Below the pieces are notes generated by a model that was given only the letters and a program-made list of their open reading frames with translations, was not told the origin of the DNA and ran no database searches. This document shows positions 3,873 to 41,000 of a stretch of DNA of 64,000 bases, in pieces; the first letter of the stretch is position 1, and each line of letters starts with the position of its first letter. The DNA is from Apostichopus japonicus. Its lineage: Eukaryota > Echinodermata > Holothuroidea > Aspidochirotida > Stichopodidae. The stretch is taken from positions 6,105,501 through 6,169,500 of the forward strand of contig NC_092581.1 in the NCBI RefSeq assembly GCF_037975245.1, written 5' to 3'. The position numbers were made by a program, and so were the translations under genes.

Positions 3873-3937
3873 AAATATGAGGTCTTTGAACAGTCGAGAA
3901 GACGGCATTCAAGTTTGAGCAGGTATATTAATAAAGT

Positions 3938-4349
3938 ATGACGGCCAAGCTTGAAAGTGATTCCTTTTTCGACTCAGATGGGGAAAATTTCAGTCAGGAT
4001 AAGACCCTCTCAAAGTTAAACCCTGAGTCTAAGGACACAAACCTTAACCGTTCATCCAGCTCAACTTCAGGACACTTTTCAAACAACACTGGTGACGACA
4101 AAATGTCTGTACGGGAGCAGTCTGCCCGTTCATATACAGTTTACTCTCGGCAGTCTCGGTCACCGTCCAATTCATATCAGTATTCAGATTCATTCGATTC
4201 AGAGAACTCAGGACAGGACACAAGACAGGCAACTCCGGCTTCGAGACGTCGCAAGAAAACGGCAAGCAGCAGAACACCCCAGAAATCAACTAAATCCTAC
4301 AGCAGTGCCTCTACAAATGTTGGTCGCTCAACAACAAAGAGAAAACCAG
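3938..4349 (+). CDS. LCA5: LCA5-like, coding exon 1
   Basis: The start ATG is at 3938. A polypyrimidine tract and AG at 3871-3872 suggest that this exon begins at 3873 and that at least one non-coding 5' exon lies upstream. It encodes a Ser-rich, low-complexity N-terminus (137 codons plus 1 base) and ends at a GTGTGT donor at 4350. Confidence 0.85.
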
Positions 4350-7300
4350 GTGTGTAGATTAATCGATATCTGATCTTTAGGATTAGTGCCATTTTGAAGA
4401 TATAGGACCCATAGAAATTTGATTGCATGTCAAACATAAAATGAAAAATGTTTGAACCTTTGAAGCGCCTAAATAATTTAGTTTGTAACACATGTACGTC
4501 AATGCAGGAATATGTCTTAATTATGCAGCATTAGGATCAAGGGCATCAGAAGTTCAACTTTTAGATTGATTCCTGGTTCTTTGAGGCAGATGTTTCTTGC
4601 CTCTGCTACATATATCTGGTAGCTTGGAGTGTCTTGGTGAATGATTGCATGTATAATCAACACTCAACGTTAATCATCTGCCTCCAACCAACTTATCCAT
4701 AACAGGAAAGAGGTTCATCATTTGCATGAGGATTAACTACTGATCAGTGTGTAAAAGAGTATAGGTACGAGCTCTATTGGTATCAGCTGATACTTGTAAT
4801 ATTGGTCTATAATTGGTATCTGCAAGGTTTGCTGCCAATATTGGGTAATCCGTATTGTTGATTGACAAAAACTTGACATTTGAGCTAATCACTTATAACC
4901 AGAGATCTAATGCACACCTCCACTCTAATAGCAAGTAAAATTGGCTTCATGAGACATAAATACATGCTTCTGTACACTTTACTTTTGTAGACTGACTATA
5001 AGGCTGGTAAAGTACCAAAAGTGATTGTGCTTTTGTTAACCATCAACATTTATCTTGTCATTTCTGTTAAGGGGTGAGGAAAGGAACCGGTACCAAGTCT
5101 GTTGGCAATAGCTCAAGTCGAACCATGAGCCTTGCCAGTGTGCAGCAGTCTCCACGAACAAACAATGAAATCACACAAAGAATGCTTTCTGCTAAAGGTC
5201 ACACAATTAATAGACTTAGAAATGAGTTGGAGGAACTCAAGCTCAAATATGATGATACCTTGAGCGAAAACAGACTCTTGAAACAGGTTCAACGGAGGCA
5301 GGAGAGAGCCCTCACAAAGTTTCAGGATGACGAAGCAGATCTCCCTCAACTGCTAAAGAAACACAGTGCAGAGTTGGATAGTCTGAACCGAAGGATAAGA
5401 AAGTATCAACAGAAGGACAAAGATAAAGAACGGAGGTCCAAAGAGCAGCACGAGCAGCTACTGAAGACAAGGGATGAACTGAAGAGACTGCAAGAATTAG
5501 CAGCTGACAAAGGACTGAAAGAACGGGACCAGTTGAGACGAAGAGCAGATCAAGCAGATGAAGAATTGGTGGAGAAGAATAGGAAGTTGATGGTATGTAT
5601 ACTAGTAACTTCAATTCTGCGCTACTACTGAACTTTACAGGGTTTAAAATTATATTCTCCAATGGGTGACATGTATTAGAATGGTGTTGTCTAAACATCT
5701 CTGTTTGCAATTTAATGTTTTTCCCACCCAAACTGTATTAGCAAGAAATTTATTGTGCTCTTCCTGCATTTATGAACAGTAATATTAGAGTTAATGTTAA
5801 ATAAGACAGAAAGTTAAAAAAAAATATCAATACTATGATAAGATTTAAATTGGTTAAGCAAAATGGTAGGTTTAGTCATGATTAACATTCTACCAGATCA
5901 ATGTGAGTTGTTTTGCTTGTTGTTACTGTTTTTATATTGTTTTCATCCTCCTTCTTACTGTAGGATCTTGAGAAGTACACAGAGAATATGAAGAAAAATC
6001 ATCGAAGGGCCGAGCACCAATGGAGGGTAAAAGAACTGGACATCAAGAATAGATTGAGGGATGCAGAAATGGAAAGGGACAGGTTAAGACTTAGGCTTAA
6101 GGTAAGTGTTAGTGCTGATAATCCACTCTTTCTTTTGTAGTTGATTAATCGCTTAGCTCTTCTCGCGCATACTGCGATTACTCGGTTACAGTTATGACGT
6201 CATCACTGTCATTTTTACATTGCAGAAATTTGTTTGTGCCTTAAGGTGTGGTGTCTTAATCATGTTAAAACATCTACCAAACAAACCTGCGAACAACTTT
6301 CAGTCTATAACGTTTCTTAAAACCTTCGACGTTTCTTAAAATGTTCATAGTAAATCGAAAACTTTTGAATGAATCTATTTGGCCACCACAACTACTATCA
6401 CTGATAAAGCAAACGTGCAAACAATGAATAGATAAAACACCTTCATGCAGTGAGATGATTAGTATTCAAGAGTTGTCTGTAGAAGGATGTTCAAAGTTCT
6501 ACCCTAGGCTAAAGCGCGACGGCAAACAAATATGTTGCACATTGAAATTAAACTACACCGCAATCGACACACTTGATCAGACATCCTATAAATGTGAGCT
6601 AGGCCAGTAATGAAGTAATTGTAAAAGTGTTTGAAGAAATGACAAATAATTTACGGATTTGCGATTATACGCAATGATCAAACATTGCTAGGGCTGAATG
6701 TTGCACTGCAGAACAAGCATATTACTGACAACGCATGAATCTAATAGAAACAGGTACCTGCCGATTTTTTACACTGCACAGTGCTAATGTAGCGTTGTGT
6801 GAACCTGTACTTGGGGATATTTGCTGACAAACTGCTTCAGTGTTGTTTTTGATAATACTACTTTCTATTCTATAACTGAAATATTGATCATTTTTCTTGT
6901 TAACATTCAAGGTTTTTTGGCTGTGTTACAAAAGTCTGATATTGCTCAAGGGAATATTGAGATTCCATGGAGCAAAGGCATGGAAGTGCTGCTTTTATGG
7001 ATGTTATTGCATTCGGTCTGTTTTTTTATGGAAAGGTTGTTGTTGAAATGTTTTAATATATCATTATTTGCTTATTTTATTTTGTTTTATAGGAGAAAGA
7101 GAAGGAGTTGGATGTTCAAAATATCTACAGCCATAGAATTTCCAAGAATCCATCAAGATTACAAGCTATAAGTGACGGTAATCAAAGGCATCTTTCAATC
7201 TCAAAATCAGTTTCTGTGGAAGATCTTCACAATTCTGTTTCTCCACGGTCGGATGTTAAACCTTCCCCAAGACACAAAGTCAACAGGACTAGTTCATTTA

Positions 7301-13274: not shown

Positions 13275-16200
13275 AAAAGAGGACCATTTCGTTTTATCGA
13301 TCATGTACATAACTAAGTATATTTGATGATTGTATTTATGAGCAAAGACTTAACAAAAGTATTAAAAGTTGTACCTTGACACTGTGTTGTATCTTTGTGC
13401 TTAATGTTTTTATGTATTCAAAGAAGAGGTCTGATGTAAAATATATATGTTATGTTATACAGAAATCATATAGTATTAATAATGCACACCTTGCTGAGTA
13501 ACAAACCTTGGAGGATATTAAACCAAAGTATTAGTTTGACACTCTTTGTGAAAAAGAGATTTATGTACAGTTTCAAGTAAATTATATTCATTTTCTTTTG
13601 CCTTGGCTGTTGTGATGCTAAAGGGTTTGAGACACATTAGATATTAGTTTGTTTGGTTTATACATGTTTAACTCACCCACTGAGCTATGTATTAGTGCAG
13701 TATCATCGAATATTAGTTACATATAGCTGAACAAACATTCTGACTATGTTTGTAATAGACATATATTTCACTATTACACTGTCATGAAACTTTCTGCTCT
13801 GGAGAACCATACCATTGTTCCCATAAAGGGGCCGAGGTGTGTGTGTGTGACGGAGAAATCGTCATAGTAATGAGCTGTTTGAGTTTGGGTTACAATACTG
13901 TTAATGTTTTAATCCCACATATACAGTACCTTAAATAGGCTAAATTGTAAAAATTTGCTGAAATTGACGTAACCAAACCTGGACACTGCAGAATGTTGCA
14001 TTTGTAATACTGTACACCAGGGAATGTTTAGTAATTATAGTATTGTAAGAGAGTGTTACTTATATAGATTATTGTAACTATTGTTTGGTTGCAACTATTT
14101 AGTTTAATCTGCTTGTAAATCACATTCAGCCAAAAACTATTTTATAGCTAACAAACTTATCATTTATGCCATATGTTCCATCTTTAACATGCTCAACGTA
14201 GAGAGAAATATTACTGACTAGTTTGGTGCCTGAATATTAATTTTCTTTCCTTTGTAGGTGCTCTGAATAATAATCTATATCTTAAAGTGCTATTAAGATT
14301 CAAAAGTTGATATTTTGTAAATGCACTTGTAACTTATTTTTCTTTTCTAGTTATAATTAGTAACAGTGGCAGATAAATCATTGTTTAGTGTTAATCACCG
14401 AACTGCTCATTAATTATTGAGACTTATGATCATAGCATGTACAAATAAAGGACAATGAGTGGTTCTTCCATGACCAATCCCCGTTATCTTAGGGTCTATC
14501 ACTGCTACTTAGGAGTTTCAATTATGTTTCCATTTTTCTGAGATGTCTGTTCTGTTCTGAGATGTCTGTCATTAGGGAGTACTGCTAGCCTGTGACTGCA
14601 TAGTTTGTTTCCCTTCCCTTGTCAGTGCTATGCCATGCAACATACACATATGCAAAGGGAAATTGATAATTGGTGATAATGATGTTTGATATAATATGTG
14701 TGAATACACCATCCCTTTAAAGCAGGGTGATTTTGTCATCAAACTTGATAATGCCATTGGTACACAAAGGCTGGGTGTTAGAAAAAAGTAACAAGTAAGA
14801 GAATGATCATATTCAAATTTGACATTTTTTTTTTCCTTTTGCAAATATTAAAGTAGTAGTATGGTTGGTAAGGAGGTTGCCATGATGGATGCGTCTATGT
14901 AATCAAGACAGGTTATTCACTGTCACTGGTTAGATGTGTATGTTCTTCGCTGACTTTGTTTGTGTAAGACTGTTTTTTTTCTGTTTTTTTTTGTGCATCT
15001 TTCATTAAAAGTTAATAATCATGATAATATTGTGGATCATTTATCAACGATATGAATGCACATTTTTCATGCAAGCAGTTATCGCGTAAGTACATAAGGA
15101 TATCTACCATAAATAAATGTATCAAAGCTTGCCATAGGGACTAAATCTAGCGTTTTCTTATGAGTATGATCTTCATAACCGCGGCATGTACTTCACAAAT
15201 TAGTTAGGATGATTAAAATTCTATCAATATTCTATCAGTCCATTTGATCCTGAATGTGAAGTCTCTTAATTTCTCAAAGTTTCAGTTCTAAGTTTTAAAT
15301 GAAACTGTTGCATATTTGAATATTGGTATTTGTAAAATTCATTGGTTCTTTCAATATCAAAAATTTCTGTATATTGGATTCGCGAACTTTTTCTAGACAA
15401 TTCGTACATTTTCAGCTAAATATTCGATTTTTTTCTTTCTGTTACATAAATTGAGGTCACAAATGTAACCTTTTTTTTATTTATAGTAAAACATGTATAC
15501 CAGTATGGCAAAGACTTTGATTTAGCAGGGATACAGATTTGAAAATAAATAATAAGAGACAATGTTATCAAAAATTCTTTCCATTCTTTTCAAAAGTTTC
15601 AAATAAGTAAAGAAAAGCATCCCGTGTAACCTACCCTGTTTGGATTTTGATAGACTTTTTAAGCTGTTTATTGATTTCGTTACTTTTGTTAGAATTCATT
15701 CCGTTGCCAGCATTTGCGGTCTTTTACTTCTTCTGTTGTATTGTCCTTTATTATTGTTGCAGACAACTTTCGTCTCTGAGATGTTATGCCGTTTTTGAAA
15801 ATTTAGGTTGACAATTCAATGAATTTTAGCAAAGTAACGAAATTAGCGACTCGCGACAAAAAGTTATTTGCAGACGGCAATATCATTTAGAAGAATAACA
15901 GAATAAGAAAATAACGACAACAACAACTTAACATTGGACAACAACAAAATCTCAGGTATAATCACTCAAAATCCCACACCCGTATAATCTGTTAATAAAT
16001 TAATAAAATAGTGCAGCCGGAGGCATATGTAATTATAAATAAAGCATAAAATTGGACGTAAACGCAGCTTAAAACAGTCAACATCTGGATCAGTCTTACA
16101 CAAACGCACACTGTCCGACTCTCTGTGAGTCTCCACGGATATGGCTTGCCATAGACGGCTTGCCATACACGTAAGGACGGTCGATTGAGTCGGGGGGTTG

Positions 16201-16553: not shown

Positions 16554-18416
16554 TAGTAAGTAGTAGTAAGTTGAGTCTCGTCTATCCGACATGCTCAGTT
16601 ATTAACCTCCGCCACGTTTCACGATCTTGCGCAAGGTTTATTGCTTCCTCGAAATTATTAATAGTAACGTCCTTAAATTGGGACTTTATTTTTTCCAAGC
16701 AAGGTAGTCATGCACGGGCCTTCCTACTGGTTTAGCAGTATGTTTCAGTGCTTCTCTTAAAGCAGGGTTGTCAAACCTACGGCCCGCGGGCCACAGTCCG
16801 GCCCGCCGCAGGGTTGCGTCCGGCCCGCCAGAGATGATCTACGGTGCGAAATTTTAGTGAGCAGATTTATTGATAACAATTTGAAGCTATATAATCAATC
16901 ATTCGAACCTTGTGGGTCCAAAAAACTGCATACAGGTCAGTTTGTGTGACACTCTCTCAGCGGAGGAGAGGGGGCGGCTGAACTTTATTCATCTGTTTTA
17001 TCAGGAAGGAAAATAAATCAGTGCGCTCCGCGCGCAGTGCTCACATTTTGTTGCCTTGGGCTTCGGGCAAAAAATCGAAAAATCGAGCGTAGGGTTCATG
17101 CGGCCCCTCCTTCATCATAATCATTCCATGTGGCCCTCCTCTGCAAGAGGTTGGACAACCCTGTCTTAAAGCAACCTTTGCTGGAGCGTCCTCCGGAAGT
17201 CTTGCCACATGACCGAAAAATCTCAATCTTCTATGTGCGACTATGGTTGACCAAGGTGTTTGGTTGGTTTCACTGTAGAGCTCATCGTTTGATAACCAAT
17301 TGTTATTGGTCCATCTAATGTTGAGAATATTACGAAGTAGTCTCCTTTGAAAAGTGTCAAATTCGCGATCAAGATCCTTCGTTGTGCCCCACAGTTCGCA
17401 ATTGTACAAAAATACTCTTTAATAAAGCCTCAAAAATCCTAAGCTTAATGTTCCGGCTAATGTTTTTGCTTTTGAAAATGCTTGACAGTGTGTTGAAAGC
17501 TCCGTTGGTTATACCAATTCTTCGGTTAATATCGTCTTCGGTCCCCAGCAAGCTTCCAACATATTTACACTTCTTCCAACTGTCATTTCCTTTTCTTGTG
17601 ATTGAAAATTTCTTAGTTTTTGTGCAATTGATTTTCAGATTCCTTCCTGCCAGTTTCTCAGAGACTCGTTTTTCGATATCTTGCAGTATATGCTGACCAG
17701 TTGATGCCCAAGAGATATCATCAGCGTATTGTTGGTCTACTGTGAAAAAAGAATTAGTGGTGGTTGTGCTGTAATCATCATCAACTAACTGAGATGGCAG
17801 GATAACTGCATCGATATCATTATCATCTGATTTCAAAGAGTTGGCTAGATAAGTTATAAAAAATAGTGCGCTTGCACTATCTCCTTGTGGTGAACCAATG
17901 TTAGTGTTAAAAGGAAGTCCGAGTTTGACCTCTAGTTTGACTGTGTATGAGACGTTATCGATTAGCAGTGTTATCAGGTGAAGTTCGTCGTTGTCCAGAA
18001 CCTGCTCTAGGTCAGTTAGCAAGGATCCTCTTTGAATTGTGTCGCCACGCCTTGCTCATATCTAGCATCAATAGATTTATAGTGTAACCTATGGATGTTA
18101 TAGCTTTTTCTGATAACACTTTAAGTTCAGCTGTGCATGCGTCCTGAAGTGTAGGCAGTTTGGGTAATGGGGAGGATATGCTCATCAATTGACGGACGAA
18201 TCCTCCGGTTTTTGGATAGGAGTTAGGATTCCTTGTTTAATTTCAGTTGGGAAATCTCCTGATTCGGCTATACTATTTAAGATATTTGCTATGTGTTTGT
18301 GTGAGCATGGGGCATATTTGAGATGTTCGGCTGTGACCTTGACACAACCTGGGGTTTTATTATTTTTTAAGGATGAGACTGCTTGTTTAATTTCATCTTC
18401 ATCAAAGGGCGTGTTT
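16554..18416 (-). mobile_element. 5'-truncated non-LTR retrotransposon (LINE) fragment
   Basis: A 13-bp direct repeat ATGTGGTTTATAG flanks the insertion (16541-16553 and 18417-18429). On the minus strand the remnant reads as reverse transcriptase. It begins FDEDEIKQAVSSLKNNKTPG near 18400, followed by DMSKA, GSPQGDSASALFFITYL, QYADDISWAST, RRLLRNILNIRW, RRLRFFGHVARLPEDAPAKV and finally ETWRRLITEHVG with a stop at 16582-16584. A 1-nt frameshift near 18040 and others show that it is dead. The 3' end is a short repeat of CTTACTACTA. The family within LINEs is not certain. Confidence 0.9.
16763..17163. mobile_element. hAT-type MITE nested in the LINE
   Basis: Terminal inverted repeats are CAGGGTTGTCAAACCT and CAGGGTTGTCCAACCT. 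A perfect 8-bp target duplication TCTTAAAG lies at 16755-16762 and 17164-17171. The GGCCCGCGGGCC subterminal block is typical of hAT (Charlie-like) termini. At 401 bp it is non-autonomous. It interrupts the LINE reading frame between APAKVALR and EALKHTAKPVGRPV. Confidence 0.92.
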
Positions 18417-18812: not shown

Positions 18813-21630
18813 GTAAGTAATTCAGCAATGTGTACTCCATGTACATAGTTTTAACATGTAAATACAGATATTATCAGCGTTTGGGTTAAACCTTAAGAAA
18901 AAAATGTGTGGGTTACAATCTCCCCCCATCCCCATCCCATTCCATTTTAATGTGAAACTGTCAAAAGATAATCATTTTGTAGTTTATATTTTATATTAAG
19001 GACCAGTTGTTTCTTTAAGGATGTTTTTAGGCATATTACTGTAATAATATGAAAACCCACAGTAGATGTAACATGCAGCAGCATGGATGATAATTCCACG
19101 CTATAGCTACTGGGTGACAACCACGGATCAATCAATCATGAGGCCTATCATAAGTATATATATTGTCACCCCAGCAAATGCAACACAGTGGGTAAACTGT
19201 GATGTCATCAAGGGAAATGTTCCTTAAATGCTTGTAATTAGGTCCTTCAAAAGTGATGTATGGAAGTTTGATGAGCTATTAACGATTTCAATATTTATTA
19301 TTAACGAAACAGTTACTTAAAAGATACGTGCTTTTGTTAAATAACTTGGTTCCGACTTACATTTAATGGGACGATGGGGTAGGAGAGCCTAGACTAAAGC
19401 ACACTACGAATAGTGTTATTTAATTTAATTTTTATTCGACACCGTTTTATGTTTTCAGGTTTACTTGGCTTCTGTAAGGATTCAAGAAACCGTCATGTTG
19501 GAAGAGAGATAGACTCAGTGTTTGATACACTGGCCATGGATGTCAGCTCTTTGCTGAAGTAAGTCAAGACATAAGGTTAAGAGGTAGCTACTTGGGTGGG
19601 AGAGAGGCTATTCGCTGTGAGAAGGAAATGTGAACATGGAGTACTCTACCATTTCAATTTACTCGTAAATATTATCAATCTGCACCCTCATGAGCAGCGA
19701 ATAGAAAAATATTTAACTGAAAAGCTGAACTGATTTCACCCCATAAGTTTATAAACTTGGCTATATTTGCAGACTGGAGGACTCAAAACTACTCTTGATC
19801 ATCTGTAGCGCTAATTCAATATGCATGGAACGCCATGAGCTTCTTCTTTACAAATTTGAAATCTCAGCTTATAGAAAGCCAATGTATCAGCATTGTAACA
19901 TTTTAACTTTTTATACAGGAGCTACAAGGAGGTTGAAGATCAAAATCTCAAACTTAAACAAGAACTTCGTTTCTGTCGTTGCCGAGGACCAAGGGCCGTT
20001 CCTAACGGACAAAATGACAAGAAAAGAAAGGTTTGTTTATTATAATAGCTCATCAGTTATTACTTCGTTCTGATTTAATGTCGAAAATAATAACAAAGGC
20101 GTATACTTGGTGGTTTACAAAAGAATGGAAAATAAATCAAACAAAGGTTGATGAAAGAAAACATTAAAAAAATATGTCTACAACTTTCATCAGAAATTGT
20201 AGAACCTCGAAATTGACAAATCAAACTGAAAGTAAATGTCTTACAAAGTAATTAATAATTCTCCCAGTCAAATTACAACACCTCTTTTTGTGAAAGTTGC
20301 ATTCTACAACCACTGCTTTCTGTTAACCAAGCCTCTTTGTCTCCACAGAGGACTCGTAAGAGTACGTCAACTAGCAGTGGAGGAAGCACCAGTTATGGTA
20401 GCAGCGGTAGTAATACTAGTAACAGCGGCGGTGCTGTTGGTTACGGAGGTGGGAATACTGGAAACGGTGCCAGTACTCACAATAATGGCAGTCGGGCTAG
20501 CGGTGGCAGAAGCAGTACTGGTTCCACTTCTGGTTCCAGTCGACAGGTGTCAGTACCACGTGACAACATGGCCATGGTCAAGGCAGAAGTGCGAAGATCC
20601 GGTTACGAGCTTCTTAATGATCAGCTTGGTAGAGGTGGTTTTGGTTTGGTCTACAACGGAAGACCTCTGAACAACTCCGGTCAGGTAAATAATAGATTTT
20701 CTAAGAAATCTATCTAAATTTGGGTCCTTAAAGTCAAACTTAACGTAATGTGCAGTTGGGCATTTAATTCCATATGTAGTTTTGATATTGGTGTTGGCTC
20801 GATATTTTTAACGGTGTTTTTTCTTTATAACATTGATATTATTTGAAAATTAGCTCATATTTTCAATATTACTTAATTAGCCTTCTCTTATGATGTCTTT
20901 ACAGGAGGTTGCCATCAAGCTTACCTTATGCGATGATATTTATTCGTGGACCAATCTCCCAGGTCAGAATGATCAGATACCTGTAGAGGCAGCAGCCCTT
21001 ATCGCACTAGAATCTGTGACCAGTGTTGTGGATCTTCTCGGCTTCGGTGAAGTCTCCCTGGGCAGCGATGATGTGTTCTTCTTTGTGATGGAGAAACCAA
21101 TGGGATGCATCTCGTTCGATACATATTTGAGGCAACATAAGCCTATTCTTCCAGTTGTGGCCTTCTCCTTCCTCAAACAGCTCGTATCGATGGTGTTGGC
21201 TATTCATCAATGTGGCTGGTTACATGGAGACCTGAAACCCAGTAACTTGTTGATGTGTGCTCAAGACCAGCTAAAAGCCATCGATTGTGGTCTAGCCAAG
21301 AAGCTCGTCAATGGTCAGTGTATCGTAACATCAGCTGGCGGTACAAAGGTATGGAACATGGCTCCCGAACGACGTAACGCTGGATCGTGCGACTTGGTCA
21401 AGTCTACTGTCTGGTCTGTGGGTGTAATGTATTATTACATGATCTTTGGACGGCTACCTTTCTCTTCTCTGAAGAAAGCACAAAAGAAGCCTCTAAAATG
21501 GCATTGCAACATACCCATTGGAGCCAAAACTATTCTACAGCGTTTATTGGATCCCGATCCGAACAGACGAGTAGTTATTGAGGACTTAGAGCAGCTGATC
21601 CAGACACACGCTGCTCTTAGTAACATCTGA
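18773..21630 (+). CDS. PIM-family serine/threonine protein kinase, 5 coding exons
   Basis: Coding exons are 18773-18812, 19459-19558, 19919-20030, 20349-20684 and 20905-21630. They total 1314 nt in consistent phase and give 437 residues. Residues 1-84 form a helical N-terminus with a short coiled coil (SYKEVEDQNLKLKQELRF). Residues 85-155 are a Ser/Gly/Asn-rich linker. The kinase domain (about 170-432) has the Gly loop LGRGGFGLVY (178-186), VAIK lysine 201, HGDLKPSN (catalytic Asp 305), DCG in place of DFG (Asp 323), APE (349-351) and TVWSVG in place of DxWSxG. The last change, and the P-E-A-A-A-L helix C, match PIM kinases, whose vertebrate members read AVWSLG. ATP- and metal-binding residues are present, so an active enzyme is plausible. 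Vertebrate PIMs lack the long N-terminal extension. Substrate is unknown. Confidence 0.9.
19459..19558 (+). CDS. PIM-like kinase, coding exon 2
   Basis: The acceptor TTTTCAG ends at 19458 and the donor GTAAGT is at 19559. It encodes GLLGFCKDSRNRHVGREIDS followed by an amphipathic helix-like segment. Confidence 0.8.
19919..20030 (+). CDS. PIM-like kinase, coding exon 3 (coiled coil)
   Basis: The acceptor TATACAG ends at 19918 and the donor GTTTGT is at 20031. It encodes the charged coil SYKEVEDQNLKLKQELRF and a basic KKRK end. It restores phase 0. Confidence 0.8.
20349..20684 (+). CDS. PIM-like kinase, coding exon 4 (linker and Gly loop)
   Basis: The exon has 112 codons, acceptor CTCCACAG and donor GTAAAT. 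A Ser/Gly/Thr/Asn-rich linker precedes the start of the kinase fold, which carries the nucleotide-binding loop LGRGGFGLVYNG. Confidence 0.88.
20905..21630 (+). CDS. PIM-like kinase, coding exon 5 (most of the kinase domain)
   Basis: The acceptor TCTTTACAG ends at 20904 and the stop TGA is at 21628-21630. The exon encodes VAIK, the hinge region (FVMEKP), HGDLKPSN, DCG, WNMAPER and the C-lobe to the end of the protein. Confidence 0.93.
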   Translation, partial: EVAIKLTLCDDIYSWTNLPGQNDQIPVEAAALIALESVTSVVDLLGFGEVSLGSDDVFFFVMEKPMGCISFDTYLRQHKPILPVVAFSFLKQLVSMVLAIHQCGWLHGDLKPSNLLMCAQDQLKAIDCGLAKKLVNGQCIVTSAGGTKVWNMAPERRNAGSCDLVKSTVWSVGVMYYYMIFGRLPFSSLKKAQKKPLKWHCNIPIGAKTILQRLLDPDPNRRVVIEDLEQLIQTHAALSNI

Positions 21631-24190
21631 TAAGTTGTTAAGAGAACGTCTTTTCTGTCACCGACCCAGGAGCGAACCTTTTAGACAATTGACTAGAGTT
21701 TCTATTCATAAAACTTCCAATCCTATTATTAGAAGTGAACTATGTTTTCCTCCAGTGAAGAACAAATTGATCCATTCTGCAGATTTTCTTGGGACTTGAT
21801 CCGAAGAGACGTTGTTGGGGATCAATAAGAACTGATCAAGGCACACTGCATAACATGGTTGGCCGCTTGCCAAGAAAATACTTTCGATCATTTGCAATAG
21901 TGACTTAATATTCATGGGGTTCGCTGCTCCCCCTTTTTTTTTTTTTTTTTATAAATTACACATTGTCTTTCTTTCTCTAAGTACAGTAATTAAATTAAGT
22001 AATAAAACAACGTCTTTGTCCTTTTTATTCGTCGAAAACGGGATGAATGGAAGGAGGGAATTGCAGTCTCCATTTGAACTAACCTTGCTCGGTGTAAGGG
22101 TTTCCGTGGAGGTGGGGTGGTTGCGTGGATAAGTGGGGGGGGGGGGGTCGCAAACAACACTGTACACGAAATATCTCTATATCGACTTCTCAGATCGAAA
22201 GTTGACCTAACCGCCTTCTCCTCTCCCCTTCCCTTCTTTAGTTTGATATTCCAACTTACTTGTCTAATAATTTCTCACCTTTAATACCCCTTTAATATGA
22301 AAATGACCACTATCTGTTCGAGACGATTATTTCCAACAGCGGTGTCTTAAAATTCTGGAATAAGAAAGACATTTCGGTGGTTTACAGCGATATCGGTGAA
22401 TAATGTTTTTTTTTGGTAACAATTGAAATTGTTATTGTCTTCTTGAGGGATGAGATTTAGGAAGGGGAAGGGATGTTCTTGTTACCTATATTTCTAATAA
22501 TGGAACAGGGATGGCATCGTCAAATATACCCGCCACTTTTCGTGGCCGCCAATTTTCGTGACCGCCACACTTTTGGTACTAATATTTCATATTTATTTGC
22601 ACCGTTGCGTAACCATAAAAATATTCGCCATTTGGCAATAGCAGAATTGTTTAAATCTTTTCAAATTCAGTACATATTTTGATTTTATTCCGTCTGTGGT
22701 TGAACAGCCATCCCTTGCTTACAATTGACGTATTTGTTATGCCGGCGATAAAGTTCAAGGTCTGTTATATACCGCACAAAAACATTTTCATATATGCACA
22801 TATATATGATTACCACGTTTTTCTTGTGAAAGACATTTTAGTTACAACCATGAGATATGACCAGTCATTATGTTAACCCGGGGAATATATGTGTATGCTA
22901 CTATACAATGTAGCGGAAATTAAGTAGATTTTTTACCGATATAGTTGATTTAGTTGCTGAAATTAAATTACATGAAATGAGTGATCGCAGCTCAGAATTG
23001 GGATAAGTTTGGTTAAATCGAGGTCCCCGGGTCAACTTACTTGGTATCATTTTGCTCGTAAATATCAAATAGCAAATGACCCTCAACGAAACATTTCCTA
23101 CTGCTCTGTTGACCAGTTTGCGTTTGTTTGACCATATCTGTTGAACAAGCTTATAGCTATAACCAACACATTTTAATGGACCAGACAATAGTAATATGAA
23201 GTGAAGATAATAAGTAAATTCATATTTCTTTATTTGCAACGATTGCACTCAATCACAGCAAATTACAAGTGGACCATACAATGACTGAGGGTGTATACCC
23301 TTTACTACGGTACCCTTCAACTGGCCGCAGTTCTATCAGAAAATCCCTTATATGAAAGTATGGTTTGAATTACCTTCGCCGTTTATATCGCTGTCACAGT
23401 ACCACACCACTGCAGTACACCTAGAGTGGTAGCCTCTTGAAATCTGAAAGGTTGTGGATAGGCCTAACATCCTATGTATGTCTATAATCGGAGAGGGTAT
23501 AGGGCAAATAAAGCAGACGATAGGAGGACAGATCAAAGAAACATATTGGATTTGGTGTTATTGTTCGTTGCTATGGCTACTCACTACGGACTGAGTTGAG
23601 TTGTAACAAAAACAAGTACAAAATATCAGTTGAATTGGCGGACATCATCGTTTAGGCCTACGGTCTACAATTTATCAAAATTTAATTAAAAGAGTTTGTT
23701 GATATCAGAGGACAGTATCTTAACAATATCTGTTTGCAGCTATTCAGGATGTGAGTCAGCCCCTTGAGGGTGTTTCATGTCATTCATAGACCGCACCACA
23801 CCACATCACACCACATCAACATTAAAAGATTTGGTGAACCATATTTTGATATCAGAGGACAATATCTTAAAATTATAATTTTGCAGCTATTCGGGATGTG
23901 AGTCTGTCCCTTAGAAGGTGTTTTTCTCTGACGTGTGCTCTAAGAGAGCCCGTGCGGCTCCTTCACTGCTTTGCAAAGGAAATGTGTATGCGCAAATTGT
24001 ATACTGCTCCTACTTCTGCGATGACACTTTCATCTGCGTTTCGCCATGTTGTTCTATGTTCCGTATATCACTCCATAAATACTGCTACAGTTCAGATGCC
24101 GCTTGGTTATTGTTGACGGGTCTGAAAGGAACAAAAAATAAGCCGTTACAAGAAAAGGATGTAGGGACATTAAATTTCCACACGCGCCCT
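21631..24190. other. 3' UTR of the kinase gene and intergenic DNA
   Basis: A candidate AATAAA polyadenylation signal is at 22001-22006. A short segmental tandem duplication lies at about 23700-23790 and 23848-23925 (GATATCAGAGGACA... GCAGCTATTC). No other gene is recognised. Confidence 0.45.
22001..22006 (+). terminator. Candidate polyadenylation signal for the PIM-like kinase
   Basis: AATAAA 371 bp past the stop codon at 21630, followed by T-rich sequence. Confidence 0.4.
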
Positions 24191-25772
24191 TATGACAAGC
24201 CGTTTTAACATTTACCTCGCAATTAGACTTAAGTCGAATACATTTCACTTAAGTGGAATACATTCTACTTAAGTGAAATGGAATTCCACTTAAGTGAAAT
24301 GTATTCCACTTAAGTGGAATTCAATTTCATTTAAGTAGAAATGGACATTTCTATTTCACTTAAGTGGAAATGCATTCCACTTAAGTGGAATTGTATTTCA
24401 CTTAGTGGAATACATTTCCACTTAAGTGGAATTGTATTCCACTTAAGCTAAATAGCCCATCTATTTCACTTAAGTGGAATACAATTCCACTTAAGTAGAA
24501 TGCATTTCCACTTAAGTGAAATACAATTCCACTTGAGTGGAATGCATTTCCACTTAAGTGGAATTGTATTCCACTTAAGTAGAATACAATTTCACTTAAG
24601 TGAAATAACATCTTTTGGGCGTCAATTTCACTTAAGTGGAATTCTATTCTGCTTAAGTAAAATACAATTCCACTTAAGTGGAAATGTTGATATGTGGCTT
24701 ACATATAAATACTATTTAGGGTAATGTTCGTCGTAACGCATTCAATTGCTCATCACATATGATGATTTAGTCGATCCTCGTTGCACGTGTACATCATGGC
24801 TACGGCTAATCATTCACATCTAACATTGCTGGAATGCGATCAAATAATTGTTGTTGTTAGAGACACAATTCGAAGTGTTGTTTCCTCACTTACACAGAGG
24901 AACAATCAGTATGATGCACAACAGAGGCGACTTACATCTTGTTTAAGTAACATAGGCAGAATTCGTAACTTTTTAGATAGTGAAACTTTTGACGAAATAA
25001 AAGATTCCATCCAAAACCCAAAATCCACAAAAAGTAAAACGTTTTCTTGCCCTTGTCAATGCGTTTTCGGCTGTAGCTCCAACCACTTATAATGTATTTG
25101 CCATGGCTTTATTTTGGTAATGGTATTCGTCAGGTACCAGGTCAGGTACGTACGTACACACCTTGCACGGATGTTAAGTGCTAGCTGGATCCCGATGGAC
25201 AGCCGATATTCATTGTGCACATATCAACACCACGTACGTACGTACACGTATCGCGGCAAGTTGTTTATAATGGCGCGCAAATGCATGGGCAAAGTTTGGC
25301 GGTAAATGTACTAGCCAATCACATTCCACTTAAGTGGAATAGACTAGCCAATCACATTCCACTTAAGTGAAATAGACTATCCAATCACATTTCACTTAAG
25401 TGGAATGCATTTCCACTTAAGTGGAATTGTATTCCACTTAAGTGAAATAGACAGGACATTCCACTTAAGTGGAATTGTATTCCACTTAAGTAGAATACAA
25501 TTCCACTTAAGTGAAATGCATTTCCACTTAAGTGGAATACAATTCCACTTAAGTGGAATGCAATTCCACTTAAGTGAAATAGAATTTAGCTTAAGTAAAA
25601 TGCAGTGACAAGTTGATGAATTCAGCTGAAGTAAAATACAATTAAGCTTAAGTGGAATGGTATTCCATTTAAGTGAAATAGAATTCCACTTAAGTTAAAT
25701 AGTATTCTACTTAAGTGAAATGTATTCGACTTAAGTCGAATTGCGAAGTAAATGTTAAAACGGCTTGCCATA
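24191..25772. mobile_element. Fold-back element built of CTTAAG-centred palindromes
   Basis: Outer ends match as an inverted repeat of about 50 bp (TATGRCAAGCCGTTTTAACA, then ATTTAC[C/T]TCGCAATT and GACTTAAGTC). A 6-bp direct repeat CGCCCT flanks the element (24185-24190 and 25773-25778). Inside each end is an array, about 24233-24690 and 25323-25745, of near-perfect palindromes such as ATTCCACTTAAGTGGAAT. The roughly 630-bp centre between the arrays holds a 98-codon open frame. The overall plan is that of fold-back DNA transposons, but no transposase is present and I do not recognise the family. Confidence 0.82.
24796..25092 (+). CDS. 98-codon open frame carried in the fold-back element
   Basis: ATG at 24796 begins MATANHSHLTLLECDQIIVV and continues with a helical, mixed-charge sequence (RDTIRSVVSSLTQRNNQYD, RIRNFLDSETFDEIKDS) to a Cys-rich end (CPCQCVFGC) and TAA. 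Composition is that of a folded or coiled protein, unlike the repeat frames around it. I find no known motif and no splice structure. It may be a cargo gene, a captured host exon or chance. Confidence 0.35.
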   Translation: MATANHSHLTLLECDQIIVVVRDTIRSVVSSLTQRNNQYDAQQRRLTSCLSNIGRIRNFLDSETFDEIKDSIQNPKSTKSKTFSCPCQCVFGCSSNHL

Positions 25773-25824
25773 CGCCCTCGGTATAGGCCTACTTTGCACA
25801 CACATATAACACTGGTTGTGGACG

Positions 25825-26095
25825 TTAGTCAAGGCGCTCCGTTAACAACAGATCCCACATAGTTTTGACAAACCTGTATTTTCTCTTCCTGAGTGATAAC
25901 GTATCTTCAATCGTATCGGGCATTGGTAGACCTTTTGTTTCAGGGAGGAAGAATACCAAGAGACCAGCAAGGACGGATGAAGCTGCAAAACAGACGAGAG
26001 GAAGGTGTTTCCAACCCTTCTCGAGGACCAATACAAGAGGGGCTATGATACCACCGACACGAGCAGCGATGGAACAAGTCCCGACGCCAAGGACC
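25825..26095 (-). CDS. SLC22-like, last coding exon (helices 11-12, C-terminus)
   Basis: The acceptor CTCCTTTCAG precedes 26095 and TAA is at 25825-25827. It encodes GVGTCSIAARVGGIIAPLV, helix 12, LPETKGLPMPDTIED and a basic cytoplasmic tail. Confidence 0.93.
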
Positions 26096-32000: not shown

Positions 32001-35000
32001 ATTGTTTTTTTGCGTCGTTATAGTTATAGTGAGAGAGATATGAAATGTTTTTAATATCAAAGACACACTGACTGAGATTGGGAGTAAGAACTGATGCGGA
32101 CGGGTACCTCCCCCCTCCCCCCCCCCCCATTCAAACGCTGTCTAACAGTTACAGGACTCACCCGACACCCAGGAATAGGCTTGTACTGAAGGAACTATAG
32201 TAACACGCATAGTACTTTGGAAGGTTCATGGGAAACCTTTCCACCGTGAAGCTTTAAAGAATTATTGGAACGTAAACAGAATTCATGTTTACGCTAGGGG
32301 TCTCTTTCATATTTGAAAATCTCATCAGTAGCCTTCCAGCTGTTCACTCCCAACCGCAGATTAGGGGAGGTTAAAGATCATGGATTTCCCTGTTGCAGCT
32401 CACTATCAGATAGGGTTAGTTGTCTCATAACTTGTTCAAAGATCGTTTTGAATAATATAACAGGTGGTTGTGTGAAACCAAGACAATGCTTCGTTTCCTA
32501 TCCACTAACTGTATGTTGCCATACCACAAAATACAGACAGCAGTCAATATAGATCAGCGAGGTCAGGGAACAACTCCTTGGCGACGATCTCCAAAAGAAC
32601 AATGTGTTTGTGTTAACACTAGCCAATAGTGGTTCAAGTTTGGTTCAAGTTTGATCAAAACATGTACCTCATTATATTTTGGAATTAATGCGTATCTTTG
32701 CTAACATATTACAGCTTAATATATATATAAGCTGCAGCCCATGAGGATATTCATTGTCACGTGCCCCCCCACCCCCCAACAAAAAAATTGTGCCACCCCC
32801 AGGTGCCCACCAGATTCGATTTGTAGTGTTAAAAGAAATACTCAAACAATTTTTTTTTTGAAAGGACGAAAAAGTATTATGTTCATCAGTAAAACTACTT
32901 ACCGCCCAACTATTCAATCGGAAAACATGTTTTAGTTCTCTCATAATGGATAATCCCCAGATAGCACCAAATTGCATCATATGACCCTTAATTATTTAAA
33001 AACATTATCTACATTGTAGTATTAGGCTTCTAAGAATTGGCGGAGATTGAGCCCGCGGAAAATTCGGTCAAGCTATATGAAAACTTCCAGCTTAGCGTTT
33101 ATTATTGAGAGAGAGAATGAAACAGGCGGAAACTGTAAGGGGTTTGTTTTTCTAAAAATGCATGGTAACTACGTTCATGGCCATGCAGCTGCAGAAGGGG
33201 GTTGGGTATAATCCCCAGTTATAATCGATCTGTTCTGACAGATATGCCATCACATATTGGGGTTAAAATAAATAGACCCCCCCCCCTCCAGTGTCCAAAC
33301 GAGGGGAAGAGTTACACACAGTTCCTCGACCCGTGTTCTCAATAAAAATTGACCAATTTCAAGTTGACAATGACTGAAACGTGCATAATAGCACAACTTC
33401 CTATGCAAGTCATAAATCTAATACGAAAATATTTAAACAAAAATCTCTGCACTTAGTCACTGAGTTAGGATCGAAGTAGTCTCAAATCATAGTAAAACCG
33501 ACCCGAGGGTGCTTTTGTGTTATTTGTTCTAGCTTTCATTTCCTTCCCAATATCTGAATTGCAAAGATACCCCCTCCATAAAATGTTCTGCTGTTCCTCT
33601 TCTGTAGTTCCAAAATCATTTTCCATCTTCATGCATCTTCTAGATGCGTTGCCTTATCCTCTCCCCGCCCCCTTTTTTGTTGTTGTAACTTATCCCTTTG
33701 TATATCTTCCTGGATTAGAAGACCGTATTACTCATTATCAGCAACACACAGCATCGCATTAGCAAAAGAGAAAAATAATGAAATTATTCACTAGACTTAC
33801 CAATTGTAAATTAAATTGATTGTATAATAAATTAAAATCCGATGACGTAATATATCCAGGTACGACGCACTTTGTATGGGAACGTCTTCAACCTAAGCGA
33901 ATAAGAAAAATGAGCTTATAGCGTGGATGTATAAAGAGGTGTTGTATATTATAATGGTACTATGCAACCTGTTTACTATAATGGTACTATGTAATATGTT
34001 TACTATAATGGTACTATGCGACCTGTATACTATAATGGTACTATGCAACCTGTATACTGTAATGGTACTATGCAACCTGTATACTATAATGGTACTATGT
34101 AACCTGTATACTGTAATGGTACTATGTAATATGTTTACTATAATGGTACTATGCGACCTGTATACTATAATGGTACTATGCAACCTGTATACTGTAATGG
34201 TACTATGCAACCTGTATACTGTAATGGTACTATGCAACCTGTATACTGTAATGGTACTATGTAACCTGTATACTGTAATGGTACTATGGAACCTGTATAC
34301 TGTAATGGTACTGTGTAACCTGTATACTACAATGGTACTATGTAACATGTATACTATAATGGTACTATGTAACCTGTATACTGTAATGGTACTGTGTAAC
34401 CTGTATTCTGTAATGGTACTATGTATCATGTATACTGTAATGGTACTATGCAACCTGTATACTGTAATGGTACTGTGTAACCTGTATACTACAATGGTAC
34501 TATGTAACATGTATACTACAATGGTACTATGTAACCTGTATACTGTAATGGTACTGTGTAACCTGTATTCTGTAATGGTACTATGTATCATGTATACTGT
34601 AATGGTACTATGCAACCTGTATACTGTAATGGTACTGTGTAACCTGTATACTACAATGGTACTATGTAACATGTATACTGTAATGGTACTGTGTAACCTG
34701 TATACTACAATGGTACTATGTAACATGTATACTATAATGGTACTATGTAACCTGTATTCTGTAATGGTACTATGTATCATGTATACTGTAATGGTACTGT
34801 GTAACCTGTATACTGTAATGGTACTATGTTACCTGTATTCTATCATGATACTATGTAACCTGTATACTATAATGGTACTATGTTACCTGTATACTGTAAT
34901 GGTACTATGTTACCTGTATACTGTAATGATACTATGTAACCTGTATACTATAATGTTACTATGCAACCTGTATACTATCATGGTACTATGTTACCTGTAT

Positions 35001-38000
35001 ACTGTAATGGTACTATGTTACCTGTATACTATAATGTTACTATGCAACCTGTATACTATCATGGTACTATGTAACCTGTATACTGTAATGGTACTATGTA
35101 TCCTGTATACTGTAATGGTACTAGGTATCCTGTTTACTATAATGGTACTATGTAACCTGTATACTGTAATGGTACTATGTAACATGTGTACTGTAATGGT
35201 ACTATGTTACCTGTATACTATCATGGTCCTATGTAACCTGTATACTATAATGGTACTATGTAACTTCATGTATACTGTAATGGTACTATGCGACCTGTAT
35301 ACTATAATGGTACTGTGCAACCTGTATACTATAATGGTACTGTGCAACCTGTATACTATAATGGTACTATGTAACATGTATACTGTAATGGTACTATATA
35401 ACCTGTATACTGTAATATACAACCTGTATACTGTAATGGTACTATGTAACCTGTATACTGTAATGGTACTATGTAACCTGTATACTATAATGGTACTATG
35501 AAACCTGTATACTGTAATGGTACTATGTAACCTGTATACTGTAATGGTACTATGTAACCTGTATACTGTAATGGTACTATGTATCATGTATACTGTAATG
35601 GTACTATGCAACCTGTATACTGTAATGGTACTATGTAACCTGTATACTATAATGGTACTATGAAACCTGTATACTGTAATGGTACTATGTAACCTGTATA
35701 CTGTAATGGTACTATGTAACCTGTATACTGTAATGGTACTATGTTACATGTATACTGTAATGGTACCATGTAACCTGTTTACTATAATGGTACTATGTAA
35801 CCTGTATACTATAATGGTACTATGTAACATGTGTACTGTAATGGTACTATGTAACCTGCCGTATACTGTAATGGTACTATGTTACCTGTATACGGTAATG
35901 GTACTATGTAACCTGTATACTGTAATGGTACTATGTTACATGTACAGGGACGGCGATTTGTTTCAAATATTGGGGGGGGGGACATTTGCTTGGATGCAGG
36001 CGAATTACTATCAAAGCGGACCGCCACCATTGGTTGGCGCGCAGCGTACAAGAAAAGTTCTTGTTTTGACAGCCCCCCAGATCCCCGGAAATGGCACTTC
36101 TCGGGCTTGAAAATGACCAACCAGATGTACAATTTTGCCTGAGAACCAAGTTTTTCCCAATAGTTTTGTTTCATTCATAACCTTTTTCAAGATTGTCACC
36201 AGTCACACATCATGTTCGACCTCATCGCATCTCCTGTGGATCATTATTTTTGTAGGTAATTCTACGTAACACCCCACAACACCCGTCAGCCCCAATTTTC
36301 AAGGTTTTAAGCCCATTATTTGTTCAGAATTTGAATAATAATTCACTTCAAAACATACCCATAATGTTGCACAAAATTTCATCTATGGACAACCAATATA
36401 GAAAAAACCCCTTCAACCCCTAACAGACCGGTCAAAATTGCACGAGTAGAGGGAAGTATGATGAAGAATGTTGGTCAAGGAATTTTCGAAAATTCAGACA
36501 TAGTTAATTTATTGGTGTACCAATATTAAAACCTCTTATAACAGCTACTATAAAACTTCGATATCATCAAAACATACCCCAAAAATATGCTCGAGGGGAG
36601 GGGGCGGTCTCCACCCTTCGCCCCCCCCCCTGGCTACGCGCCTGCGGTTAGAAATTTTGTAGGAAACAGGCCAAATGAAAACCCAGTGAACCCATATCGA
36701 TGTGGATCATATATATGATTGTACGTACTTACACTCATACACAAGAGATGTACAGACATTATGATAATAATCACGAGTGACAACATGTTACACGGTCACA
36801 GGTCACAGAAACGACCACGGAGAGTCATTTACCTCATGCAGCATGTGTTGGATGAAGTTGTAGCCACCGCCAAATATGATTTGGATAAATAATCTCACGC
36901 GTTATTTTCTATTTATAGCCCAGACAAAAATTATGCCACCAAATTATTGGGGGGGGGGGTATTAGATACCACCGTATATCCCCACCTAAAATATTGGGAG
37001 GACATGTCCCCCACCCGCCCCCCCCCCAATGATCGCCTATGTATTATGTAACCTGTATACTGTAATGGTACTATGTTACCTGTATACTGTAATGGTACTA
37101 TGTAGCCTGTATACTATAATGGTACTATGGAACCTGTATACTGTAATGGTACTATGTAACCTGTATACTGTAATGGTACTATGTAACATGTGTACTGTAA
37201 TGGTACTATGTAACCTGTATACTACAATGGTACTATGGAACCTGTATACTGTAATGGTACTATGTAACCTGTATACTGTAATGGTACTATGTAACCTGTA
37301 TACTACAATGGTACTATGGAACCTGTATACTGTAATGGTACTATGTAACCTGTATACTGTAATGGTACTATGGAACCTGTATACTGTAATGGTACTATGT
37401 AGCCTGTATACTATAATGGTACTATGGAACCTGTATACTGTAATGGTACTATGTAACCTGTATACTGTAATGGTACTATGTAACATGTGTACTGTAATGG
37501 TACTGTGTAACCTGTATACTACAATGGTACTATGTAACATGTATACTATAATGGTACTATGTAACCTGTATTCTGTAATGGTACTATGTATCATGTATAC
37601 TGTAATGGTACTGTGTAACCTGTATACTGTAATGGTACTATGTTACCTGTATTCTATCATGATACTATGTAACCTGTATACTATAATGGTACTATGTAAC
37701 ATGTATACTGTAATGGTACTGTGTAACCTGTATACTGTAATGGTACTATGTTACCTGTATACTGTAATGATACTATGTTACCTGTATACTGTAATGGTAC
37801 TATGTTACCTGTATACTGTAATGATACTATGTAACCTGTATACTATAATGTTACTATGCAACCTGTATACTATCATGGTACTATGTAACCTGTATACTGT
37901 AATGGTACTATGTATCCTGTATACTGTAATGGTACTAGGTATCCTGTTTACTATAATGGTACTATGTAACCTGTATACTGTAATGGTACTATGTAACATG

Positions 38001-41000
38001 TGTACTGTAATGGTACTATGTTACCTGTATACTATCATGGTCCTATGTAACCTGTATACTATAATGGTACTATGTAACTTCATGTATACTGTAATGGTAC
38101 TATGCGACCTGTATACTATAATGGTACTGTGCAACCTGTATACTATAATGGTACTATGTAACATGTATACTGTAATGGTACTATATAACCTGTATACTGT
38201 AATATACAACCTGTATACTGTAATGGTACTATGTAACCTGTATACTATAATGGTACTATGAAACCTGTATACTGTAATGGTACTATGTAACCTGTATACT
38301 GTAATGGTACTATGTAACCTGTATACTGTAATGGTACTATGTATCATGTATACTGTAATGGTACTATGCAACCTGTATACTGTAATGGTACTATGTAACC
38401 TGTATACTATAATGGTACTATGAAACCTGTATACTGTAATGGTACTATGTAACCTGTATACTGTAATGGTACTATGTAACCTGTATACTGTAATGGTACT
38501 ATGTTACATGTATACTGTAATGGTACCATGTAACCTGTTTACTATAATGGTACTATGTAACCTGTATACTATAATGGTACTATGTAACATGTGTACTGTA
38601 ATGGTACTATGTAACCTGCCGTATACTGTAATGGTACTATGTTACCTGTATACGGTAATGGTACTATGTAACCTGTATACTGTAATGGTACTATGTTACA
38701 TGTACAGGGACGGCGATTTGTTTCAAATATTGGGGGGGGGGGGGACATTTGCTTGGATGCAGGCGAATTACTATCAAAGCGGACCGCCACCATTGGTTGG
38801 CGCGCAGCGTACAAGAAAAGTTCTTGTTTTGACAGCCCCCCAGATCCCCGGAAATGGCACTTCTCGGGCTTGAAAATGACCAACCAGATGTACAATTTTG
38901 CCTGAGAACCAAGTTTTTCCCAATAGTTTTGTTTCATTCATAACCTTTTTCAAGATTGTCACCAGTCACACATCATGTTCGACCTCATCGCATCTCCTGT
39001 GGATCATTATTTTTGTAGGTAATTCTACGTAACACCCCACAACACCCGTCAGCCCCAATTTTCAAGGTTTTAAGCCCATTATTTGTTCAGAATTTGAATA
39101 ATAATTCACTTCAAAACATACCCATAATGTTGCACAAAATTTCATCTATGGACAACCAATATAGAAAAAACCCCTTCAACCCCTAACAGACCGGTCAAAA
39201 TTGCACGAGTAGAGGGAAGTATGATGAAGAATGTTGGTCAAGGAATTTTCGAAAATTCAGACATAGTTAATTTATTGGTGTACCAATATTAAAACCTCTT
39301 ATAACAGCTACTATAAAACTTCGATATCATCAAAACATACCCCAAAAATATGCTCGAGGGGAGGGGGCGGTCTCCACCCTTCGCCCCCCCCCCCCTGGCT
39401 ACGCGCCTGCGGTTAGAAATTTTGTAGGAAACAGGCCAAATGAAAACCCAGTGAACCCATATCGATGTGGATCATATATATGATTGTACGTACTTACACT
39501 CATACACAAGAGATGTACAGACATTATGATAATAATCACGAGTGACAACATGTTACACGGTCACAGGTCACAGAAACGACCACGGAGAGTCATTTACCTC
39601 ATGCAGCATGTGTTGGATGAAGTTGTAGCCACCGCCAAATATGATTTGGATAAATAATCTCACGCGTTATTTTCTATTTATAGCCCAGACAAAAATTATG
39701 CCACCAAATTATTGGGGGGGGGGGTATTAGATACCACCGTATATCCCCACCTAAAATATTGGGAGGACATGTCCCCCACCCGCCCCCCCCCCAATGATCG
39801 CCTATGTATTATGTAACCTGTATACTGTAATGGTACTATGTTACCTGTATACTGTAATGGTACTATGTAGCCTGTATACTATAATGGTACTATGGAACCT
39901 GTATACTGTAATGGTACTATGTAACCTGTATACTGTAATGGTACTATGTAACATGTGTACTGTAATGGTACTATGTAACCTGTATACTACAATGGTACTA
40001 TGGAACCTGTATACTGTAATGGTACTATGTAACCTGTATACTGTAATGGTACTATGGAACCTGTATACTGTAATGGTACTATGTAACCTGTATACTGTAA
40101 TGGTACTATGCGACCTGTATACTGTAATGGTACTATGTAACCTGTATACTACAATGGTACTATGGAACCTGTATACTGTAATGGTACTATGTAACCTGTA
40201 TACTGTAATGGTACTATGGAACCTGTATACTGTAATGGTACTATGTAGCCTGTATACTATAATGGTACTATGGAACCTGTATACTGTAATGGTACTATGT
40301 AACCTGTATACTGTAATGGTACTATGTAACATGTGTACTGTAATGGTACTATGTAACCTGTGTACTGAAATGGTACTATGTAACCTGTATACTGTTATGG
40401 TACTATGTTACATGTGTACTGTAGTTGTACTATGTATCCTGTATTAGGAGAGTGGCAACATATCAGGAAGCAATGATTCAGATATTTTGTTTTTCATTGT
40501 GGAAAGCAAATGCCCAAGCGAATTGTACGTTCAATATATATGTAAGTTAAACATATTAATTTAAGTCTTTAGGATAAACATCGTGCACCCCAACCCGCCA
40601 AAAAAAAACAAAAAAAACGATGAAACATATATTAAAAATTTTGAAGGAATGTATTATATAGAATATTTCATATCATTACACTTACAGTTTTAAGAGTTGA
40701 CATCAATTCATCTGGTAGAGTTTTTCCGTTCACTCTGGCAATTTTCTTGATAACTTTCTCTGCATGAACAAACTTCTTTTTACTGAGAAGCCATCTTGGT
40801 GATTCGCTTAGCATTCTTTGTTTTCAACAAGAAACAGACAGAGAGTGAGAGAGAGAAGAACAAAGAACACAGTCTGTTTTATTATTTATTTGATAGTACG
40901 TTTGTTTAACTTGTTTGTTCGTTCGTTCTTTGTGTGTTTATTAATTTGGTTTAATTTAGCTACCGGAGAGGGAGGCTACGTATCTGGACGTTGGGTGGTC

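Follow-up and report, generated by a model that had tools for sequence, protein, structure and literature searches.

A mobile element with arms of phased palindromes in the sea cucumber Apostichopus japonicus, probably of the IS3EU type

The element at positions 24191–25772 of the window (the whole stretch of 64,000 nucleotides of Apostichopus japonicus DNA that was analysed) is mobile, because its ends are common to hundreds of places in the genome, mostly with different 6-bp flanks, and longer copies carry a transposase. The best explanation of the whole, with a probability of roughly 0.78, is that of a non-autonomous IS3EU-type element formed by internal deletion, whose arms would act as docking sites for the transposase. 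Judged by its sequence features, the assignment to non-autonomous elements of the IS3EU type is very probable, and the origin as an internally deleted derivative is equally so.

The element is 1582 bp long and has CGCCCT on either side, at 24185–24190 and 25773–25778; both the coordinates and the flanking repeats are exactly as given in the preliminary description. The left outer terminal inverted repeat (24191–24224, plus strand) begins TATGACAAGCCGTTTTAAC, the common family form being TATGGCAAGCC, and the right one (25739–25772, minus strand) reads TATGGCAAGCCGTTTTAAC on the minus strand. The family termini are TATGGCAAGCC..GGCTTGCCATA; the left end of the window element, TATGA, is one base off TATGG, and the right end matches the family form. 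The inverted ends, originally estimated at about 50 bp, are real but longer: 57 of the 60 outermost positions are identical, and the outer inverted pair comprises 71 nt at 94%. The left arm (24225–24683) and the right arm (25310–25738) are, like the duplications, assigned to no strand. Between the left arm and the open reading frame, a TATA-box-like sequence was noted by eye at 24704–24711 (plus strand) and may be a promoter remnant. An open N-terminal exon remnant, MATANHS..., follows at 24796–25092 (plus strand), with 38% identity to the N-terminal exon of a full-length element on contig C16. When the two flanks of the window element are joined, the matches in the assembly are only its own two halves (1–120 and 115–240), which overlap by 6 bases, the CGCCCT duplication. 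Outside the element, at 25825–26031 (minus strand), is an open reading frame whose stop lies about 50 bp from the element end; by eye it resembles the tail of a sugar/organic-cation transporter, and a Pfam comparison gave no match at E 0.01.

The arms are arrays of palindromes centred on CTTAAG. The left arm has 18 such cores and the right arm 16, 34 in all, as against 7 in the remainder of the 64-kb window; the two arms are separated by a 656-bp gap free of cores, and the spacings within them are 20 or 21 bp in most cases. The left arm has 18 centres with at least seven of eight matching pairs and the right arm 13, whereas 100 dinucleotide shuffles per arm average 0.38 and 0.36 and never give more than 2, so that the array structure first described is confirmed. 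The claim that the units are perfect palindromes of 16–18 bp holds for 12 of the 34, the perfect length ranging from 6 to 18 bp. Self-folding of the arms had also been proposed, and the left arm has a predicted fold of −165.3 kcal/mol vs −41.2 (sd 4.2) in 100 shuffles (z = −29.8). A chance or low-complexity origin of the arms is ruled out by the palindrome-count and folding shuffles, and a satellite unrelated to mobile DNA by the paired terminal inverted repeats and the duplications.

The same arms are found throughout the family. An 18-bp palindrome, ATTCCACTTAAGTGGAAT, occurs exactly at 728 genome sites (control, 0). Among 812 CTTAAG spacings shorter than 100 bp in 22 family loci, a value of exactly 21 bp is found 542 times and one of exactly 20 bp 83 times; another 122 are 27, 29, 33 or 36 bp and are off phase or only roughly in phase. 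The symmetric sites of the window's family hold a conserved phase. The number of units varies among copies, from 14 to 23 in one arm and from 16 to 34 in the other, with the exception of locus L009, a small derivative with only three sites; 33–53 sites are kept in 21 of the 22 non-autonomous loci.

Mobility had been proposed from the single copy, with identical ends and different 6-bp flanks at other loci as the test and a longer copy as a possible source of the transposase, and copies of all these kinds were found. With one mismatch at most, the 19-bp terminus has 371 + 382 = 753 matches in the 671,581,487-base genome, and the reversed control has none. Twenty-five loci were taken: six, the window copy included, by best matches to the element's open reading frame, and 19 by paired termini from contigs C2–C5, near the top of the listing. 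Three (L010, L017 and L018) were dropped, their flanks being common with L009, L016 and L003, which leaves 22 distinct loci. A perfect 6-bp duplication is present in 17 of the 22, with 13 different hexamers, and no locus matches at 7 bp; when left and right flanks are paired across loci as a control, 13 of 462 pairs match. Among the five imperfect cases, L007 has a shifted duplication of 5 bp, and L004, L009, L022 and L025 have one mismatch each. When the 17 duplications are taken together with their reverse complements, 32 of the 34 sequences have G at position 2, so the target form of the family is nGnnCn, with which CGCCCT agrees.

Several copies (L007, L008, L013, L015–L017 and L020) are composite, with extra internal termini after AATTGAAGGA or GGATCGGTCG; our reading is that these are nested or captured elements. 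Near-identical copies of the N-terminal exon also recur on C19 and C20, about 170–230 kb apart, with further ones on C11, C14 and C21. Their positions are near the starts of C11, C14, C20 and C21 and at 31.0–32.4 Mb of C19, suggesting large repeated blocks with one copy per block.

The N-terminal exon remnant has 120 matches genome-wide. It was matched in 15 of the 22 family loci, the other seven being without a match, and in the 14 loci besides the window it is 92–99% identical to the window copy. We read it as a relic and not as a retained repressor gene: the pooled dN/dS is 0.69, and stop codons interrupt it in 3 of the 15 loci.

Following up one distant match to the exon (38%, C16:5813049) revealed a complete element. 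Two full-length relatives were delimited, one of 22,667 bp (C1:12260970–12283636, duplication CGGCCG) and one of 21,419 bp (C16:5792413–5813831, duplication CGAACC). Both have the terminus TATGGCAAGCCGTTTTA(A/G)C and arms with CTTAAG cores, of which the two arms of the C1 copy hold 17 and 21. Long aligned stretches of the two are 97–98% identical, and one arm is 92% identical. A 161-bp tandem repeat lies within the full-length elements (L027 1594–4433; L028 404–1306), repeated about 17.7 times in C16 and 5.6 times in C1.

The transposase exons lie on one strand and comprise an N-terminal region, a helix-turn-helix (HTH) and an integrase core. The core matches rva_4 (PF24764) at E 2.7e-76, the general rve model giving only E 0.04–0.2; HTH_7 scores 24.5 bits in the C1 copy (E 3e-5) and 22.0 in the C16 copy, at a cut-off of 23.8. 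In the C1 element the Pfam comparison covered 10 pieces. A comparison of the integrase exon with PDB sequences gave no relatives at E up to 0.1. In the C16 element the N-terminal exon begins directly inside one arm; in the C1 element about 1.55 kb is inserted in this exon relative to C16. Between the two copies there are 5 synonymous and 6 non-synonymous changes in the rva_4 exon (dN/dS 0.33), 3 and 2 in the aligned N-terminal part (0.20), 0 and 2 in the HTH exon, and 0 and 3 in the exon between the HTH and rva_4. From these counts, purifying selection on the DNA-binding part appears weak or unproven. Among 150 scored of 225 rva_4 candidates, no full-length element with the N-terminal exon of the window's own subfamily was found; within the same scope, and by eye, the 38%-identical one on C16 is the only exon copy with an rva_4 match no more than 15 kb away. 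The direct partner of the window element may be extinct, absent from the assembly or overlooked by the search.

A second gene accompanies the transposase. On the opposite strand, and convergent with it, is an open reading frame of 362 amino acids whose C-terminal part matches the HECT domain (profile positions 200–306 of 306, E 1.1e-11); it is read inward from the side opposite the N-terminal transposase exon. Six synonymous changes and one non-synonymous change separate its C1 and C16 copies, and this dN/dS of 0.05 between full-length copies suggests purifying selection. Of 143 rva_4 matches the best 25 were considered: 15 of them have a HECT-like match within 15 kb, convergent in every case. 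Among the best 19 (E ≤3e-65) HECT is present in 13, at 2.1–5.4 kb, although these 13 places are not independent, being copies of about six families. Five of eight weaker places also have a convergent HECT match, a count biased by contigs chosen partly for known HECT matches. Of the six places without HECT among the best 19, L038–L040 form one family by alignment and another is L043; the two remaining, from their profile range, we take to belong with the L038–L040 family. HECT is a regular second gene in several rva_4 transposon families. In a partial search of the literature, no description of HECT in IS3EU was met.

Other rva_4 transposases with TAYGG termini are accompanied by different repeated cores, at about the same spacing. 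GATATC is repeated in 16 units at L033 (20–21 bp, with one spacing of 27), in 27 units at L041 (mostly 20–21 bp, plus 38, 46 and 26) and in 28 units at L042. ACGCGT is present in four units at L031 and L032 (spacings 19, 23 and 19) and in two units 21 bp apart at L044, where terminus and transposase are still present. L029 and L030 have an imperfect 22-bp repeat. A transposase tree of 16 rows, 14 of them different, has clades that match the cores: CTTAAG (100/99), GATATC together with L043 (93/93) and ACGCGT (93/92); the program warned of long branches, L029 and L030 among them.

By a strict count, symmetric centres number 9 and 12 in the C1 element and 13 and 14 in the C16 element (maxima of 3–4 in 100 shuffles), and 24 and 27 in L041 and L042 (maximum 5). 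L032 is barely above its shuffles (2 vs a maximum of 1), and no excess over 100 shuffles was found in L033 (4, maximum 4), L029 (2, maximum 3), L030 (2, maximum 2), L031 (2, maximum 2) or L044 (0, maximum 1). Only the CTTAAG arms and L041/L042 clearly have an excess of palindromes. The periodicity of L033 at 21 (0.5) is the strongest among the related families; peaks are at 10 and 20 in L041, 22 and 11 in L029, 42 in L031, and 46 followed by 21 in L044. No phased palindromic arm was identified beside the transposase at L039, L043, L045 or L046; the stretch fetched for L043 may stop short, and L046 has a terminus-like sequence with no adjoining array. L038 and L040 have AT-rich repeats only. 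Other repeats were noted in L039 (33 bp), L045 (52 bp) and L046, where a long self-inverted array occupies 3438–4579.

The window holds a second non-autonomous, IS3EU-like element at 51882–52765, with a CAATGG duplication on both sides, a terminal inverted repeat of TACGGAGAG(T/C)CAAACGTTCC and 21-bp repeats, CAATTCGATATCAACATGTTA, in both arms. Its terminus has 317 genome matches at two mismatches at most (control, 3), and all three copies retrieved (L048–L050) have perfect 6-bp duplications. The targets GTTGTG, GAAACA, CCTTAC and CAATGG depart from nGnnCn. Three rva_4 queries gave no transposase match in the 6.4-kb copy L050. A short cluster of terminal inverted repeat ends (TATGGCTTGCCATAGACGGCTTGCCATA) with no element between them, at 16140–16167, is perhaps a remnant of excision or deletion. 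Other features of the window are a very long 27-bp minisatellite at 33943–38704 and 39806–40444 (about 176 + 24 units), in which both strands have long open frames, a degraded reverse-transcriptase-like open reading frame at 17372–18055 (minus strand; RVT_1 E 2.3e-6, under the cut-off) and a protein-kinase open reading frame at 20881–21627 (plus strand; E 9.9e-27). Elsewhere in the genome, the mitochondrial contig is translated with code 9, and on it COX1 is followed by a gene that by eye is ND4L and then by COX2, the gene order of echinoderms.

The palindromes are interpreted here as putative phased docking sites for transposase dimers, a role we hold to be somewhat better supported than not. 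A transposase from an element of the 21–22-kb type would cut and paste the window element with a 6-bp stagger at nGnnCn sites. Each palindrome would be bound by a dimer; the simplest candidate is the transposase, acting through its HTH exon. The two helical turns between sites would place the dimers on one face of the DNA, where a row of them may bring the two ends together and favour their cleavage. Regulation of genes inside the element may be a further role of these palindromes. Folding back would be a consequence of the arms being inverted and palindromic, and is not necessarily the form in which the element works. That arm hairpins or cruciforms are themselves the substrate of a structure-driven fold-back mechanism is very improbable: the predicted folding of the left arm is indeed very strong (z −29.8), but the 6-bp duplications and the integrase-type (DDE) transposase are in keeping with ordinary integration through staggered cuts, and relatives with few units, such as L044, retain terminus and transposase.

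Two other readings deserve more weight, though both are unlikely. The arms might be passive, satellite-like arrays shaped by slippage and gene conversion, with palindromy as a by-product of conversion between opposed arms. The differing unit numbers of copies (14–23; 16–34), the existence of composite copies with internal terminal inverted repeats and the unit symmetry of several related families, no stronger than in shuffles, all accord with this; conversion, however, accounts for the similarity of the arms to each other and not for the two-fold symmetry of each 18-bp unit, and the spacing of about 21 bp recurs in families with a different unit sequence. A little less likely again is that the palindromes are mainly operators or enhancers for the element's genes and that the ends are recognized through the outer 34 bp alone, as might be suggested by the N-terminal transposase exon starting directly inside the arm in C16, by the HECT open reading frame read inward from the other side and by the TATA-like motif after the window's left arm. 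The retention of 33–53 sites in 21 of 22 non-autonomous loci suggests instead a need for them in movement, but the argument is weak because the copies are young (exon remnant 92–99% identical) and L009 has only three sites.

The docking interpretation can be extended, tentatively, to a re-codable platform of symmetric dimer sites about two turns apart, in which the core would be replaced as the HTH diverges (CTTAAG, GATATC, ACGCGT) while spacing and termini are kept, and in which the convergent HECT ubiquitin ligase would have a part in transposition or in evading host control. This extension is made less probable by several related families in which the strict palindrome count does not exceed that of shuffles. 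If true, it would provide a natural series of matched transposase–DNA pairs; if the arms are phased sites that change with the transposase, one genome would give several such pairs for the study of co-evolution of transposase and ends. Phased sites would also offer a mechanical reason for the origin of fold-back arms, and with a conserved HECT open reading frame next to the transposase, ubiquitin ligation would join the accessory functions carried by DNA transposons. IS3EU elements are seldom treated at length in the part of the literature searched.

Polinton/Maverick elements have AG..CT termini and genes for DNA polymerase B and capsid proteins. Their duplication, 6 bp according to extracts of the source (PMC10045372), agrees with that of the window family, but the TA..TA termini rule them out. 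The window element has the fold-back type of architecture, with long inverted repeats made of tandem repeats. The duplication is 9 bp in FB and 8 bp in the sea-urchin TU elements, and about 9 bp in Mutator-type fold-backs. A Mutator-type fold-back is ruled out by the 6-bp duplication, 0 of 22 loci matching at 7 bp. FB, Galileo, Tetris and a sea-urchin element likewise consist of inverted repeats of variable tandem repeats, the repeats of Galileo contain extra transposase binding sites, and the majority of fold-backs are considered members of Mutator, as the consulted part of one source has it (PMC4079207); the window family differs in its 6-bp duplication and integrase-like transposase. In Hermes, a hAT element, several transposase dimers contact one transposon end; this is a different superfamily with BED domains, and a palindrome array is unmentioned in the portion of the source consulted (PMC10368747).

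The closest agreement is with IS3EU (with GingerRoot), which has TA..TA termini and a duplication usually of 6 bp (PMC10045372, in extract). Fungal IS3EU families have terminal inverted repeats longer than 30 bp and TAYGG..CCRTA ends, and fungal TET+ IS3EU elements have a second gene, an alpha-kinase, in the opposite orientation to the transposase (PMC12730594, in extract); Styx in Zymoseptoria is an IS3EU-related example (PMC10853768, in extract). Here, perfect 6-bp duplications are present in 17 of 22 loci and in both full-length elements, the family form has TA..TA termini from which only the window's left end, TATGA, is one base off, the inverted repeats exceed 30 bp with 57 of 60 positions identical, and full-length relatives with the same terminus and arms have an integrase-like DDE transposase. 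Because termini, duplication length and transposase type agree, the family fits the known IS3EU superfamily, a placement by described features and not by protein comparison. The available extracts of IS3EU descriptions do not mention phased-palindrome arms, a HECT open reading frame or a length of 21–22 kb, and the words 'subterminal', 'palindrom' and 'HECT' each occur 0 times in PMC10045372. The element had been proposed as belonging to an undescribed family; the superfamily is known, as are fold-back arms of tandem repeats, while for phased-palindrome arms no description was met in a partial search of the literature that drew on sources other than Repbase. As far as that partial search shows, the arm design is new within the known IS3EU superfamily.
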